64,000 bases of DNA from Cliona cf. orientalis (lineage: Eukaryota; Porifera; Demospongiae; Clionaida; Clionaidae): contig OZ005693.1 of the NCBI GenBank assembly GCA_963930775.1, positions 1,054,001-1,118,000 on the forward strand, written 5' to 3'. The translations under genes were made by a program, and so were the position numbers. Below, piece after piece: positions 38,661-44,630 of this stretch; position 1 is the first letter of the stretch, and each line of letters begins with the position of its first letter. Below the pieces are notes generated by a model that searched no databases, had not been told where the DNA came from, and saw only the letters and a list, made by a program, of their open reading frames with translations.

Positions 38661-41600
38661 TTCTCCTAACCTTTGTCAGCTGTCAGTCGGGGAGCCTAAC
38701 GCCCATCAATGATGGATGCGTTTGCCCGGGGGGCGTGCTGCGGTTAAACTGCACAACGGTGGGCGATGGCATTACCATATGGAAGGGAACGGCCTTTCCC
38801 CAAGTCGGCTGTAACAGAGACATTTCACTGATCCATTCTGAACTCATGGGTCTCATTACCAGAAATGAGTCTAGATTTTGCCCTGACTTGGTGCCAGCGA
38901 TTAACGCCATGCCCCTTTCTATTGTTAGCAACAGCTACACATCGCAGCTGACTATCCTAAAAGACCGTGGGGACTTGAATGGGCGCACCATTGTCTGCCA
39001 GCACGAGTTAACTACGACGACTAACATTGGGACGTATACCATCATGTACACTACAGGTGAGAAAGAGGGAGAGAAGGAGAGAGAGAGAGAGAGACAGGAA
39101 GAGAAGGAGAGAGAGACGAGGAGAGAGAGAGAGAGAGAGGGTGAGAAGGAGAGAGAGAGACAGGGAGAGAAGGAGAGAGAGACGAGGAGAGAGAGAGAGA
39201 GAAGGAGGGAGAGAGAGACCTATCTCTGCTTATGTTTCATTGCTCTTCAAACTAGAGCCCTTTTCTCCGCCGAGCAACGTTTCTTTCACAGCTATCGCCG
39301 CCAATGAGCTCACCTTTTCGTGGGAAAATGTTCGCCCAAACTGTCTCTCGCTTTCTTACGAAATTGACTCCTCCTCCGTTTGTGGCAACTGCCCAACAAC
39401 CACTAATTCTACATCGGTTACATGCTCCGGGGTGCAGCTGAGTGGTGGTGTGGAAATGTGCAGCATCAGCGTTCGAGCCATCACTTGTGGAAACATTACT
39501 GGAGATTACAGCCAACCTCTCGTTACAATGCTCCAAGGTTTGCAAAACACACTGACTTCAGTTTCTCACAACAACCCGGGCCAGAAAAATACAACACAAC
39601 ATTCAACTCGTGAAACCATGTGGCTCAGTAAAGTATAGCTTGTCCGGGCCTCCATTACTCTAAGCTTCTATGTCCATTTCTGATGAGCCATGATGGTTTA
39701 GTTGGGGGGGGGGGGGGGGGGTGAGGGGGGGGGGAGCCGCAGATAGCCCCTTAGTAATTATTATTTTTCCCACCCAATCGAATGGAATTAATTATCGCTT
39801 TTTCTATGCTTAACAGCCGCGAATGCTCCGAGTGTGAGGGTGGTTCCGAGGTATCGTCTAAACTCAGGTCTGATCTCGTTTATGGCAGTTATTGAGGAAC
39901 TGGTAAGTTTGGCAACATTTATGATAATTGAGCCCGAGCATATCAAGTGACCAGAACCACCCTTTTGTATCTATCTATATTTAGGTACCTGTTTCTATTT
40001 CTGGCAATGATGTCATAGTGCAGTCCATCCACGTGAACTACACAACTAGTGATTCGTGTAGTTCCAGTTTTACTCAGTCATGTGACCAGGGGGTGTGTAG
40101 CAGAGAAATCAACATCATGACATCATCGTGTTCGATCAGTGCCGATTCAGCAGTCACCGTGTCAGTGGCAGCTACCAGTGATCTGGGAATGGGACCGACA
40201 ACGACATTGAGTATCGGTATGTGACACGAAAGCTTTATGCCCATTGTAATGATATCGCTAATAATACAATACATGTAATTGCTGACTTAGCATTATAGAC
40301 ACCTGGTATTGTATAATGTATATCATAGAATTGATAGTAGAAGCTTTTGGACATATTATTGTTTACGTAAACATTGGTGTTTTAATCTGATCAGTGGAAT
40401 AGTTTTGGGGGGGGGGGAAGTTGCTTTGTTTTGAGCCGGTCAACATGTAACCAGCTGTCATCATCAGTGTGCAGCATGAAGTATTTTGTTATTATGGTAT
40501 ACACTGACTATCTGTCCCCAACATCTCTGTGTGTTTGTTCTGTAGTCCTCATCAAAACAGGTATAAGGATGTATGGCATGGCTTTTTGGGTTTGTATTGT
40601 ATGACTACTCATGGTCCTTTGAAAGGTAGAGCTTATAGACACAAGTGCAAGAGCATACACTCTTCTCTCTCTCCTCTTCTTTCTCTCTCTTCTCTCTCTC
40701 TCCCTCCTTCCTCCCCCCTCAGATGGCAGTAGCAGAAATTTTGTACAAGTGAGCTCCAACATTGAAAACTCGACTAGGCTGACTGTCACCTGTGAATTTA
40801 CTGACCCTCTCGATAATAGCACCAAATTCTGCAATGTCACGTACCGTCTCTGTGGACAGCAGTTGAGCACAACAGCAGAAGGTGTGTTCAGCCCTGACGA
40901 ACCGAATATAGCCAGAGTTGTGGTGAATTTCTCTGGCCCAGCTGATATGTACTGTTTCAACGTGACGGCCAGTAACGAGACTTTCACGGTGACTTTCGAT
41001 GGCAGTATGCCACCGCCTGCTACTACTGGTATAACTACTGGTGTAACTACTGGTGTAACTACAGGTGTAACTACTGGTGTAACTACTGGTGTAACTACTG
41101 GTGTAACTACTGGGGTAACTACTGGTGTAACTACTGGTGTAACTACTGGTGTAACTACTGGTGTAACTACAGCAGTGGAAGGTGAGTGAAATCATTGTCA
41201 AGATGTAATTAAATATATAATAATAATTATTTTGTTTATAATAGTAGTAACTCCATCAAGGAGTGGATTGAGTTCTGGAGCTGTTGCTGCCATTGTGATT
41301 GTCATCATTCTTGTTGCTGCTGCACTTGCTATTGCTGCAATCATCACAGTGATAGTCGTACTGAAATTTAAAGGTTGTGATATACCTACATAATGATTAT
41401 ACAAATGCAGGATCAATTTTATGGGAGTGTTGAAATTTTCAATGATACAGATTGTGAGCCAGGCAAGAAGAGTCCCCGACATGTGCATTTCACGGGCGAT
41501 CCCGATGAAAGTGTACGAGTGGAGATTATTGGGGAATCAAAAGATGTGGAAGCTGGACAAAGTAAGTAGCTACTGTATAGCCGGAAATATTGGTGGGAAT

Positions 41601-42606
41601 TAAATTTGGCGGTTGAGCCCAAAATTGTAATATTAGCGGATTTAAATTTGGCGGTTCAGGTACGGGATCGCCATACGTTATAATATATGCGAGTAGGGAA
41701 TTTTGATGGATTTTAATTTGGTGGTTGTGATATAGACTGCCAAACCCCCAAATTTAATTCCCGCCAAATTTTCCGGCTATACGGTATACTGTTCCCTAAG
41801 TAGCTATATACTCTTAATAACCGTTTAATGACAGGGGGTGGGGGAGCCCCCAGGAGGGGGAGGGAGGGGCAAGGCTACTATTTATATTACAAAATTATGA
41901 ATTAACTCGTTTATTTTCTTTGCATTGAACAGCTCCAACTAGGGAGAGGAAACAGATGGAGGAGGACAGTTTACCGCCCACGCCAGTTGTTTCTGCAACG
42001 AGCCCTCTTGGTGGCGTCCTTGAAAAGCATGCAGGTCAAGTCCCTGTAAGTCACACTTTTGTGTATTATTATTTTTGTTAAAAACTTTGCTGACTATGCA
42101 TCCCGATTGCATCAGATCCTCCATCTTACTTATCTTAGTTTCTGTATGAAACACTATAATATAATATTATAATTATTGACTGATTCACCACACTATAATT
42201 TTGCTAGTGAGTTTAATATTATTTGACTAATGTTGCAGGTGGCCATATCGAGGTATCCAGGTGAAGAGACATTGGAGGCACTGGATAAGCAGTACTGGAT
42301 ACCGGAAGCGTGGACAATGAGAAAGCTGGAGAAAAGAATAAGGTACGGCACGCAATGTGTATCTATCACATGTCATACACTCAGTGACAGTCCCTCTCAT
42401 GTACACACACATTAATTTTGTATTCTAGGAAGAAAGATCTTCGTCTGGAAAGCGAGCAGCCATTATATCTCACCGTTGACAATAAGACTGTGGTTGAAGG
42501 CGGCCTAACTTTGAAGGAGGTATACAACACCAGTCATCACAAGGGAGACAAGCACCTTCACGTCGCATACTCATCTAAGGATATAGCAGACCCCGATACT
42601 TCATGA
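38661..42606 (+). CDS. Type I receptor: Ig/FN3 ectodomain, TTGV stalk, membrane span, LC3/ATG8-like tail
   Basis: The predicted exons are 38661-39056, 39256-39537, 39817-39902, 39985-40216, 40723-41181, 41245-41373, 41451-41561, 41933-42045, 42239-42342 and 42429-42606. All have AG/GT borders and matching phases, giving 695 residues plus TGA. The first exon, with the ATG and most of the signal peptide, was not found; LLTFVSC looks like a signal-peptide end. Order: cysteine-containing Ig-like domain, FN3-like domains with many N-glycosylation sequons, about 12 TTGV repeats, the span AAIVIVIILVAAALAIAAII, then a tail. Tail residues from about 595 (HAGQVPVAISRYPGEETLEA, LDKQYWIP, QPLYLTVDN, KEVYN, HVAYSS) follow LC3/ATG8 order almost end to end. 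The lipidation glycine is missing. Known ATG8 proteins bind LIR motifs in autophagy. A receptor fused to this fold is, to my knowledge, undescribed. Confidence 0.8.
39057..39225. repeat. Polypurine GA tract in receptor intron
   Basis: About 170 bp of almost pure 'gagagagaagg' on the plus strand lies directly after the GTGAGA donor. It can form triplex (H-DNA) and may vary in length. Frames run through it only because it lacks stops. Confidence 0.85.
39706..39735. repeat. Poly-G tract
   Basis: This is an interrupted run of more than 25 G residues in the intron between 39537 and 39817. It is G-quadruplex prone and a likely site of assembly error. Confidence 0.8.
41023..41172 (+). repeat. Coding 12-bp minisatellite (TTGV stalk)
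   Basis: The unit 'actactggtgta', with few variants, encodes Thr-Thr-Gly-Val about 12 times just outside the membrane. It is a probable O-glycosylated, length-variable stalk. The near-identity of units at the DNA level suggests recent expansion. Confidence 0.9.
41576..41781. mobile_element. MITE 'tatagccggaaa' in receptor intron
   Basis: 'tatagccggaaa', '.attggtgggaattaaattt' and their complement form the ends. Internal 'aaatttggcggtt' repeats are present. It lies between the exons ending at 41561 and starting at 41933, only 14 bp from the donor. No coding content. Confidence 0.75.
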
Positions 42607-42873: not shown

Positions 42874-44630
42874 TCAAACCAACGTCAATGTTCCTGTGAT
42901 CTGCCACTGGTCTGAATCATAGACCTTAGAAAGCACCACCTCCGACTCAAACACGAAATTATGGTCCCCTCTCTCGAGAAGCGTACGTGTCAGGGTAGCC
43001 AGTGATGGCCTCAGCCTCACTGTGAACCTGCTCCCTCCAATTTCAATCACAACTGCACGCTTCATGTCCACCAGTCCATCGCAGAGAAGCAGCCTTATCC
43101 AGGATCCACACTCGGGCTCATTCTTGTATTCAACTCGTAGCTAATGGCAGCTTCGATGCGTCTTGCTTTAGTCGCGCTCTTGTCGCCACTTATGTCGAGC
43201 CAGTAGAATAGATCAGAGGGTGCTGTCACTTCTTTAAAGGCATGCAGTGGTCTTCTTTTCGCTCGTGTACTGGTGTCCCAAATGAGGTGGAATGGAGTGG
43301 GGTTTCGTTCATGCTGACTCAACCAGGCAATGGCATTCGTGTTGCGCTTCGTGCAACTGGGATTTTCACCACCTTTCAGCCAAGTTTCGAGATCAGAGAT
43401 GACCAAATTCTCTCTCTGTCGGCTGTCATTGTCGGAAACATTGTGTGATCTTCCCTTGTGCAGCCAGCATTCGTTCACATATCCGTCAGGGTGTGCACTC
43501 TTCAACTCCTTTAATTTAAGTCCATATTCTGCCCCAACCTTGTTTCGATTGTAAGCGAAGTCACATTCGCCAACTTGAATCACAAATGGTACGTGGTAGA
43601 GATTCACTACACTAACACTGTTGGGATGTCCTGCCGACATGTTCGCCCCCGCCCACCTATCGGCCATTTTTGGAGCAATGTGGTAGACGCCGTCTCCACC
43701 AGCCGAATACCCCAGGAGGTAGACATGATTTGGATCAATGTCCCAGCAAAGGATCATGTATGCAATCAGTTTATCGTAGAGTTCGTACGACCTGTCGACA
43801 AAGTGTAGATTCCAGGTATCTGTGATTCCCCTAGCAGCGACGTAGATACCAACCGACACGCTGTCCCTGTAGTATTCCTGCATGTGTTTCCACTGTCCGT
43901 CGTTCACTGAGGGGTGAGTGCCACCGCCGCCATGGAGACAGATGTACAGAGGGTAGCCTTTGTCAACAGGTTTCTCTCCAATCACGAAGTAGCTGATTTT
44001 CATCTCTTCAATACTGCCCTGAAAAGCTGAGAGACTCTGGGGACCAGCACCAGATGAAGCAGCCTGGCCACTCTCACTCTCAATGTTAGCATGTAGAGCT
44101 TCTTTTGCCACTGTTTTGAAGGAGTGAAGGTATTTCTCCCATAGTTTCTGCTTCACCAAGGTGACTTGTGAGTGCTCCAGCTGCCTGCTGGCGGAGTCTG
44201 AAGTTAGGAGTTGCTCCCAGGAGGCAGCAAAATCAGGTAAGGAAGCAGGCCCGTACACAGGGGGGGTTCGAGGGGGTTCGGACGAACCCCCCTTTTTGGC
44301 CACCTAGCTTAGCACCAGGTGTAACTTACATGCTTCTTTACAAAACGATGTGTTGTTTTCCAAATAACGCACACCGGATGTGCAATAGATTGCATAGCCA
44401 GTGTACAATACGTAGTGCTAGTCTAGTAGCTAGCAGCATCAGCCCATCATTGTAAATATGCCTCAGAATTACCCTCAAAGAGTCTAAATTTCAAAAATTT
44501 TCTGGGGGAGCATGCCCCCAGACCCCCCTAGGTGGGCTGTGGGTTAATGCCCACAGCATACCTGTCTGAGCCACACCCCCATGTAACCCCCCTTTGAGAA
44601 AGGCTGCGTACGGGCCTGGGAAGCATCCAT
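42874..44630 (-). pseudogene. Esterase-like alpha/beta hydrolase, copy B (start and C-terminus broken)
   Basis: The minus-strand frame keeps the whole catalytic core lost in copy A. It has HGGGGTHPS (oxyanion), GYSAGGDG (nucleophile Ser), VGECDFAYNR (probable Asp) and HKGRSHN (probable His). Two lesions exist. A 373-bp MITE (44246-44618) follows the fourth codon of the original start (ATG at 44628-44630), so translation from that ATG stops inside the MITE. A 10-bp deletion relative to copy A near 43124 shifts the last about 70 codons; the shifted frame stops at 43095 and the original one would end at 42874-42876. A product using a non-AUG or spliced-in start cannot be excluded. Enzyme class is feruloyl-esterase/PHB-depolymerase-like; the substrate is unknown. 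Confidence 0.75.
44246..44618. mobile_element. MITE disrupting the esterase start, GGAAG duplication
   Basis: The ends are 'caggcccgtac' and 'gtacgggcctg', with GGAAG duplicated at 44241-44245 and 44619-44623. The interior begins with G-rich 'gggttcgagggggttcggac' and ends with C-rich sequence. Copy A has the empty site at about 2877-2891. A 5-bp duplication is seen in hAT5-type elements (inference). Confidence 0.85.

Follow-up and report, generated by a model that had tools for sequence, protein, structure and literature searches.

Does a gene of the sponge Cliona cf. orientalis carry an ATG8 domain as the cytoplasmic tail of a membrane receptor? ATG8 proteins are soluble and are joined to membranes by reversible lipidation. 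The question arises at positions 38661 to 42606 of a 64,000-nucleotide stretch (the window, C5:1054001-1118000, in an assembly of 216.8 Mb and 149 contigs), where a preliminary description had reported exons for a glycosylated ectodomain, a stalk, one membrane span and an LC3/ATG8-like tail. The explanation that we favor, with a probability of roughly 70%, is that the locus encodes a single-pass receptor of a large family, with an LC3-derived ATG8 domain as its cytoplasmic tail.

Gene model and ATG8 homology of the tail

Splice sites and a tandem copy of the gene (see below) were used to re-derive the exon borders, which gave ten exons on the plus strand, labeled E2 to E6, TM (transmembrane), JX (juxtamembrane) and T1 to T3 (Table 1). 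The start of the TM exon, 41248, was set with the tandem copy's acceptor as guide. Joined from E2 to T3, the exons form a single open frame of 682 residues to the stop, with AG/GT at all internal borders. Apart from small border corrections, the phase-consistent exons described earlier stand, and the junctions 41373/41451, 42045/42239 and 42342/42429 are correct.

The tail exons (41933-42606) match the Pfam ATG8 family, PF02991, with 50.1 bits (E 3.5e-13; profile positions 10-101 of 104; cut-off 27), far beyond chance, and the whole 682-residue protein scores 45.7 bits (E 8.2e-12). Among solved structures, 97 distinct PDB sequences match the tail at E <= 0.01, with LC3B the best (E 2.6e-10). 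The LC3/ATG8 likeness that had been noticed from landmark motifs is thereby borne out, and it is practically certain that the tail is an ATG8 homologue. A pseudogene or a chance match is ruled out by the Pfam score, the intron match given below and the open frames in two copies.

The animal's own LC3 gene on contig C16 reads ...FKQRRSF/A SRKDEVASIRSKFPQKVP/VIVERY...TII(R)/NRMGL...HEFFG (slashes mark introns), and the receptor tail reads ...GQ/T PTRERK...EKHAGQVP/VAISRY...KRI(R)/KKDLRL..., with introns in phases 1, 0 and 2 in both. The T1/T2 and T2/T3 introns interrupt the same residues as in LC3 (KVP/V in phase 0 and II(R) in phase 2), the end of T1, ...EKHAGQVP, matches the ..SKFPQKVP boundary of LC3, and the JX/T1 intron is in phase 1, like the first intron of LC3. 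T1 is 113 nt long, as against 56 nt in LC3 exon 2, and its extra part is Pro-rich. Because these positions and phases match those of the animal's own ATG8-type genes, the proposal that the tail descended from an ATG8 gene via genomic exons, and not from a processed copy, is well supported by gene structure. Descent from LC3 in particular is suggested by one intron and by the RYxxE..L..LDK signature of LC3 type that the tail carries. The GABARAP gene L019 (C3:2836676-2838778) shares the phase 1 intron and the VP/V-type phase 0 intron and has its third intron elsewhere, after ADLSG, so that the third intron alone is LC3-specific.

Other ATG8-type loci of the genome include two divergent GABARAP-like genes at C8:7526217-7526920 (L021) and C8:7675258-7675497 (L022), near-identical in the last exon. 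Both lack a C-terminal glycine and end ...TKPTTSPTTK, and earlier exons were found in L021 only. A further locus, C3:2175510-2175968 (L018), about 660 kb from L019, repeats the last two exons of that gene; it is a partial GABARAP duplicate whose earlier exons are absent from the 10-kb stretch examined.

The receptor part and its family

The single membrane span is strong, with a best 21-residue Kyte-Doolittle mean of 3.36, and is preceded by a stalk of 11 TTGV units and one TTGI unit, as had been described. The predicted glycosylation of the ectodomain is consistent with 11 N-glycosylation sequons within the first 500 residues. The ectodomain had been called Ig/FN3-type. This assignment is weakly backed. 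E3 matches Pfam fn3 with 21.8 bits (E 2.2e-4), below the cut-off of 25. Pfam recognizes no Ig domain, either in the complete protein or in any of eight scanned modules of the family, and PDB antibody chains matched a 20-member family profile only at E >= 0.063.

The receptor part belongs to a large family in this genome. The E2 module matches at least 150 places, among them both C5 copies (150 scored of 350 candidates), and its Cys-rich N-terminal module has 10 invariant columns across the top 20 aligned members, again with both C5 copies. A genome search with the TM/JX region gave no close relative beyond those two copies; the remaining three matches were weak and span-like (E 0.06-0.54). Tails were examined in five other members (L052-L056), in which the general plan is FN3-like modules plus a span. 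A span is present in L052 and L053, with no Tyr motif in the visible frame, and L056 has no clear span; nor has the neighboring family gene on L015. None of the five has a convincing ATG8-like match (tblastn with the tail and the animal's own LC3; best E 0.95), and the ATG8 tail therefore looks like a swapped tail on a member of this family. L054 and L055 have, behind the span, a short tail with paired Tyr motifs (YDEINL...NVAYRQ and YDDI...NVAYGQ), which we take to be reminiscent of immunoreceptor tyrosine motifs.

The receptor units E2, E3, E4+E5, E6, TM and JX are in phase 1 at both ends. LC3 exons 2-4 were probably captured via a phase-1 intron behind these symmetric 1-1 exons, a capture that would have replaced LC3 exon 1 and its start codon, and the frame would have stayed intact because LC3 exon 2 starts in phase 1 and the receptor units are 1-1.

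The tandem copy and selection

The second copy, L016 (C5:1049105-1053170), lies 43.6 kb upstream of the first, just beyond the window edge. All ten exons recur in it with their splice dinucleotides intact, and they join into an open frame of 687 residues from E2 to the stop; a genome search for the tail turned up these two C5 copies and no other. Together the copies form one block of recent duplication, about 88-91% identical in DNA, and exon identity is 95% for E2, 94% for E3 and 99% for E5. Eight of the ten exons align without gap columns, and the gaps in the other two are multiples of 3 (12 columns, one repeat unit, in E6; 3 in TM). Gap columns in the nine introns number 40-171 in five and 0-7 in four.

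The ratio of nonsynonymous to synonymous substitution rates (dN/dS) between the copies is 0.23 for T2+T3, 0.19 for JX (3 nonsynonymous and 4 synonymous changes), 0.61 for T1 and 0.35 for E2-E5. In JX+T2+T3, 11 of 24 changes are nonsynonymous against a neutral expectation of 0.782 (P 5e-4), and in T2+T3 alone 8 of 17 (P 0.005), small counts in both cases. The changes in the tail fit purifying selection, on few changes.

Relatives in protein and contig collections

A search with the tail of 5.8 billion predicted proteins (sources ena, jgi and lgn) yielded 13 relatives among 26 candidates at E <= 0.001. Eleven include T3, and the other two, P0011 and P0013, cover T1 only. Their reading frames run into introns and hence prove no splicing. 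T3 shows strong conservation across the 11 relatives, with 32 invariant columns, whereas the neighboring residues translated from introns vary. For both P0002 and P0009 the longest contig given is one of 376,207 bases, an indication that two tail copies are present there too.

No relative with the receptor attached was found in the full-length search (0 of 2262 candidates at E <= 0.01), in viral_contigs (14 pattern matches) or in genome_contigs (153 pattern matches). A search for long proteins with an LC3 domain gave nine matches among 54 candidates, with Ig or fn3 listed for none. These searches depend on shared short words or patterns, which distant relatives could escape.

Docking surfaces of the tail

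The joining of a receptor to an LC3-type ATG8 domain, as first described, is retained in the single gene model. It had further been proposed that the tail acts as a canonical LC3, recruiting autophagy proteins with LC3-interacting region (LIR) motifs directly to a surface or phagosomal membrane. We compared pocket residues by alignment, taking them from the available parts of PMC7615515 and PMC7297954, to which the citations of these papers below also refer. In LC3B the W-site, hydrophobic pocket 1 (HP1), consists of D19, I23, P32, I34, K51, L53 and F108 (PMC7615515). The tail has P V P A Q W H at these positions (R first in the tandem copy), so that one of seven is kept, with Trp for L53, His for F108, and Gln or no residue at all for K51. 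At these positions the animal's LC3 shows E I P I K L F, as do two GABARAPs of the genome, with hydrophobic or basic residues where the tail has changed; a divergent ATG8-like protein on C8 has E V P V K L F. The changes A34, Q51 and W53 recur in all three relatives that include T2, and substitution of K51 by Ala lowers or abolishes LIR binding (PMC7615515). The N-terminal helices that complete HP1 have the Pro-rich stretch of T1 in their place. The second pocket, HP2, has the residues Y I P L R I and is mostly kept (F52Y, V54I, P55, L63 and I67), with I66 changed to Arg. Direct LIR-motif recruitment was thus not upheld. Although the mostly retained HP2, the LDK motif, which in the window copy includes K49, and the half LIRs and other non-canonical LIRs that have been described (PMC7615515, PMC7297954) speak for canonical LC3 function, we consider it doubtful.

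The docking site for ubiquitin-interacting motifs (UIM-docking site, UDS) has the consensus psi-F-psi-theta/T (PMC7615515). The tail reads L-Y-L-T here, fitting three of four positions, with Phe replaced by Tyr as in the animal's own LC3, and LYLT is invariant in all 11 T3 relatives. With HP1 lost and LYLT kept, canonical LIR recruitment becomes less likely, and docking at the UDS face in its stead is a possibility to which, judging from the aligned residues, we give somewhat less than an even chance. According to PMC7615515, a UIM-like motif has yet to be seen bound at the UDS in any structure, and the face of lipidated Atg8 that carries this site points toward the membrane.

The tail ends KDIADPDTS. 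Phe-Gly is absent in both copies and in all 11 T3 relatives; in P0009 a Gly is located further on, in an extension. Without a C-terminal glycine the usual lipidation of the tail is impossible, and it is also needless, because the receptor's own span anchors the domain. In the proposed mechanism the span would hold the LC3 derivative permanently at the membrane without lipidation and, with the anchor at the opposite end of the domain, the UDS face could look to the cytosol. Ligand would gather receptors into a multivalent docking surface of UDS type, or perhaps of HP2 only, and the docked partners might be trafficking or phagosome-maturation proteins. We tentatively raise the idea, as the less probable case, that the protein represents a new receptor class, in which an LC3-derived module is tethered N-terminally, bypassing lipidation, and its cytosolic UDS face becomes a signaling surface after ligand clustering.

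One gene or two

Fusion of the receptor and the ATG8 tail in one protein is, on the genomic evidence, likely but not proven. The rival that bears most directly on it is a pair of genes: a receptor gene finishing with TM or JX, and a second gene for a soluble ATG8-like protein, to which T1-T3 would contribute the 3' end. The second gene would start at the Met of MEEDSLPP... in T1 or in an exon not yet seen. That Met is in frame and is kept in the tandem copy, P0011 and P0013. However, neither three-frame translation nor tblastn revealed an exon 1 of LC3 type in the JX-T1 intron of the window copy or of the tandem copy, and 216 of the 371 nt of this intron are taken up by an inverted-repeat element. 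Two genes would also leave JX as a conserved exon without a partner, carrying a GTAAGT donor; its phase fits T1, and its amino-acid changes between the copies are few. We consider two genes unlikely.

Several observations weigh against the fused receptor or parts of it, some of them in favor of two genes. The JX/T1 junction is predicted from genomic phases and open frames, and no database protein found spans it. Unspliced, the TM exon ends after six more residues and JX after two, in both copies; the JX-T1 intron contains one ATTAAA, and neither AATAAA nor ATTAAA occurs within 300 nt past the T3 stop. Because of these quick stops, the intron signal and the lack of a signal past T3, receptor forms that end early are possible. 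Since the copies are a recent duplicated block, which carries both parts together, their shared order is no test of whether neighbors in it are one gene. Candidates for an exon with the start codon were examined, and none is kept in the tandem copy. Substitutions per site between the copies are not lower in all exons (T3 6.2% and the preceding intron 6.0%; E2 2.3% and the next intron 2.6%), and some or all of the 13 database proteins may represent alleles of this animal or come from its near kin. The invariance of LYLT is weak evidence by itself, as 32 columns of T3 are invariant anyway, and in the T3 relative P0012 the position of F108 is occupied by Tyr. Finally, a FastTree phylogeny of 11 sequences places the tail beside the GABARAPs and not LC3 (support 0.61; branch of 1.5 substitutions/site). 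A GABARAP origin is disfavored by the different third intron of L019 and the RY/LDK pattern of the tail, yet the tree leans weakly toward it.

That long branch, the loss of HP1 and the terminal glycine, and the places where exon and intron substitution rates are alike would also suit a functionless ATG8 fragment decaying at the receptor end, which the unbroken frame in both copies, the tail dN/dS and the invariant T3 columns of the relatives make very unlikely.

Comparison with known systems

Like members of the LC3 subfamily (MAP1LC3; PF02991), the tail of the favored fused receptor has a ubiquitin-like core, homologous to theirs, and the RYxxE..L..LDK signature, and its two internal introns agree in position and phase with those of the animal's own LC3 gene. 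It differs in having a membrane span, no C-terminal Phe-Gly, a lost HP1, and a Pro-rich stretch for the N-terminal helices. With the Ig-like/FN3-like receptor family of the same genome the protein shares the N-terminal Cys-rich module, the FN3-like modules and the span; it differs in its ATG8 tail from L054 and L055, whose tails are short and carry Tyr motifs. The divergent Atg8 of apicomplexans is reportedly a stand-alone protein, whereas here ATG8 is the tail of a receptor. For this divergent Atg8 a non-autophagic function has been described (PMC9973341, in the part available).

The nine long PF02991 proteins, among them the bird PLD5 models P0014 and P0015, have an ATG8 domain as well, and P0014 has an N-terminal hydrophobic stretch. 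Among the six examined, P0014, P0016, P0018 and P0020 keep the Phe-Gly end, and P0019 and P0021 hold the domain's first part only. All nine look like gene-model fusions of neighboring genes; PLD5 and MAP1LC3C are, we assume, adjacent.

We found no paper describing a membrane receptor whose tail is ATG8 in the literature on ATG8 fusions, ATG8 receptors and divergent ATG8, as covered by titles and the starts of abstracts, with subscription journals thinly represented. The words LC3 and autophagy are absent from the available part of PMC8242945. Both halves come from known families, and their combined design is absent from the proteins and literature searched, in agreement with the preliminary statement that no animal receptor of this design is known.

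If true, a receptor with an ATG8-derived tail would tie recognition at the membrane directly to ATG8-type docking, with no conjugation machinery. It would be a natural test of the UDS face with the LIR pocket gone and the anchor at the opposite end, and is a clean candidate for intron-phase-guided exon capture producing a signaling receptor.

Features of the locus

Table 1. Exons of the candidate receptor gene and the repeat element in its JX-T1 intron (window positions).
Feature	Position	Strand	Description
E2	38661..39056	+	N-terminal ectodomain module: probable signal-peptide end and Cys-rich domain; 396 nt
E3	39292..39537	+	fibronectin-III-like module; 246 nt
E4	39817..39902	+	ectodomain module, first part; phase-compatible, kept in tandem copy
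E5	39985..40216	+	ectodomain module, second part; E4+E5 form a symmetric 1-1 unit, 318 nt
E6	40723..41181	+	membrane-proximal ectodomain module and TTGV stalk (~41022-41171); 459 nt
TM	41248..41373	+	single membrane span, basic end LKFK; 126 nt; donor GTTGTG in both copies
JX	41451..41561	+	juxtamembrane linker, phase 1-1; 111 nt
Miniature inverted-repeat-like element	41571..41786	+	within JX-T1 intron; 44-nt arms 89% complementary
T1	41933..42045	+	corresponds to LC3 exon 2, enlarged; starts in phase 1 and ends in phase 0
T2	42239..42342	+	first half of the ATG8 core (VAISRYPGEETLEALDKQYWIPEAWTMRKLEKRI-R); corresponds to LC3 exon 3
T3	42429..42606	+	C-terminal half of the ATG8 domain, with stop codon; corresponds to LC3 exon 4; without C-terminal Phe-Gly

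Position 38661 is the start of an internal exon, and E2 opens LLTFVSC-QSG, resembling the end of a signal peptide. The inverted-repeat element, of about 216 bases, is abundant in the genome: all 40 scored places match at 87-100%, the window included, from 2498 initial candidates. Downstream of the gene, on the minus strand at window positions 43095-44303, lies a long open frame of 402 aa, presumably with the look of an alpha/beta-hydrolase or esterase, the 3' end of which recurs downstream of the tandem copy.

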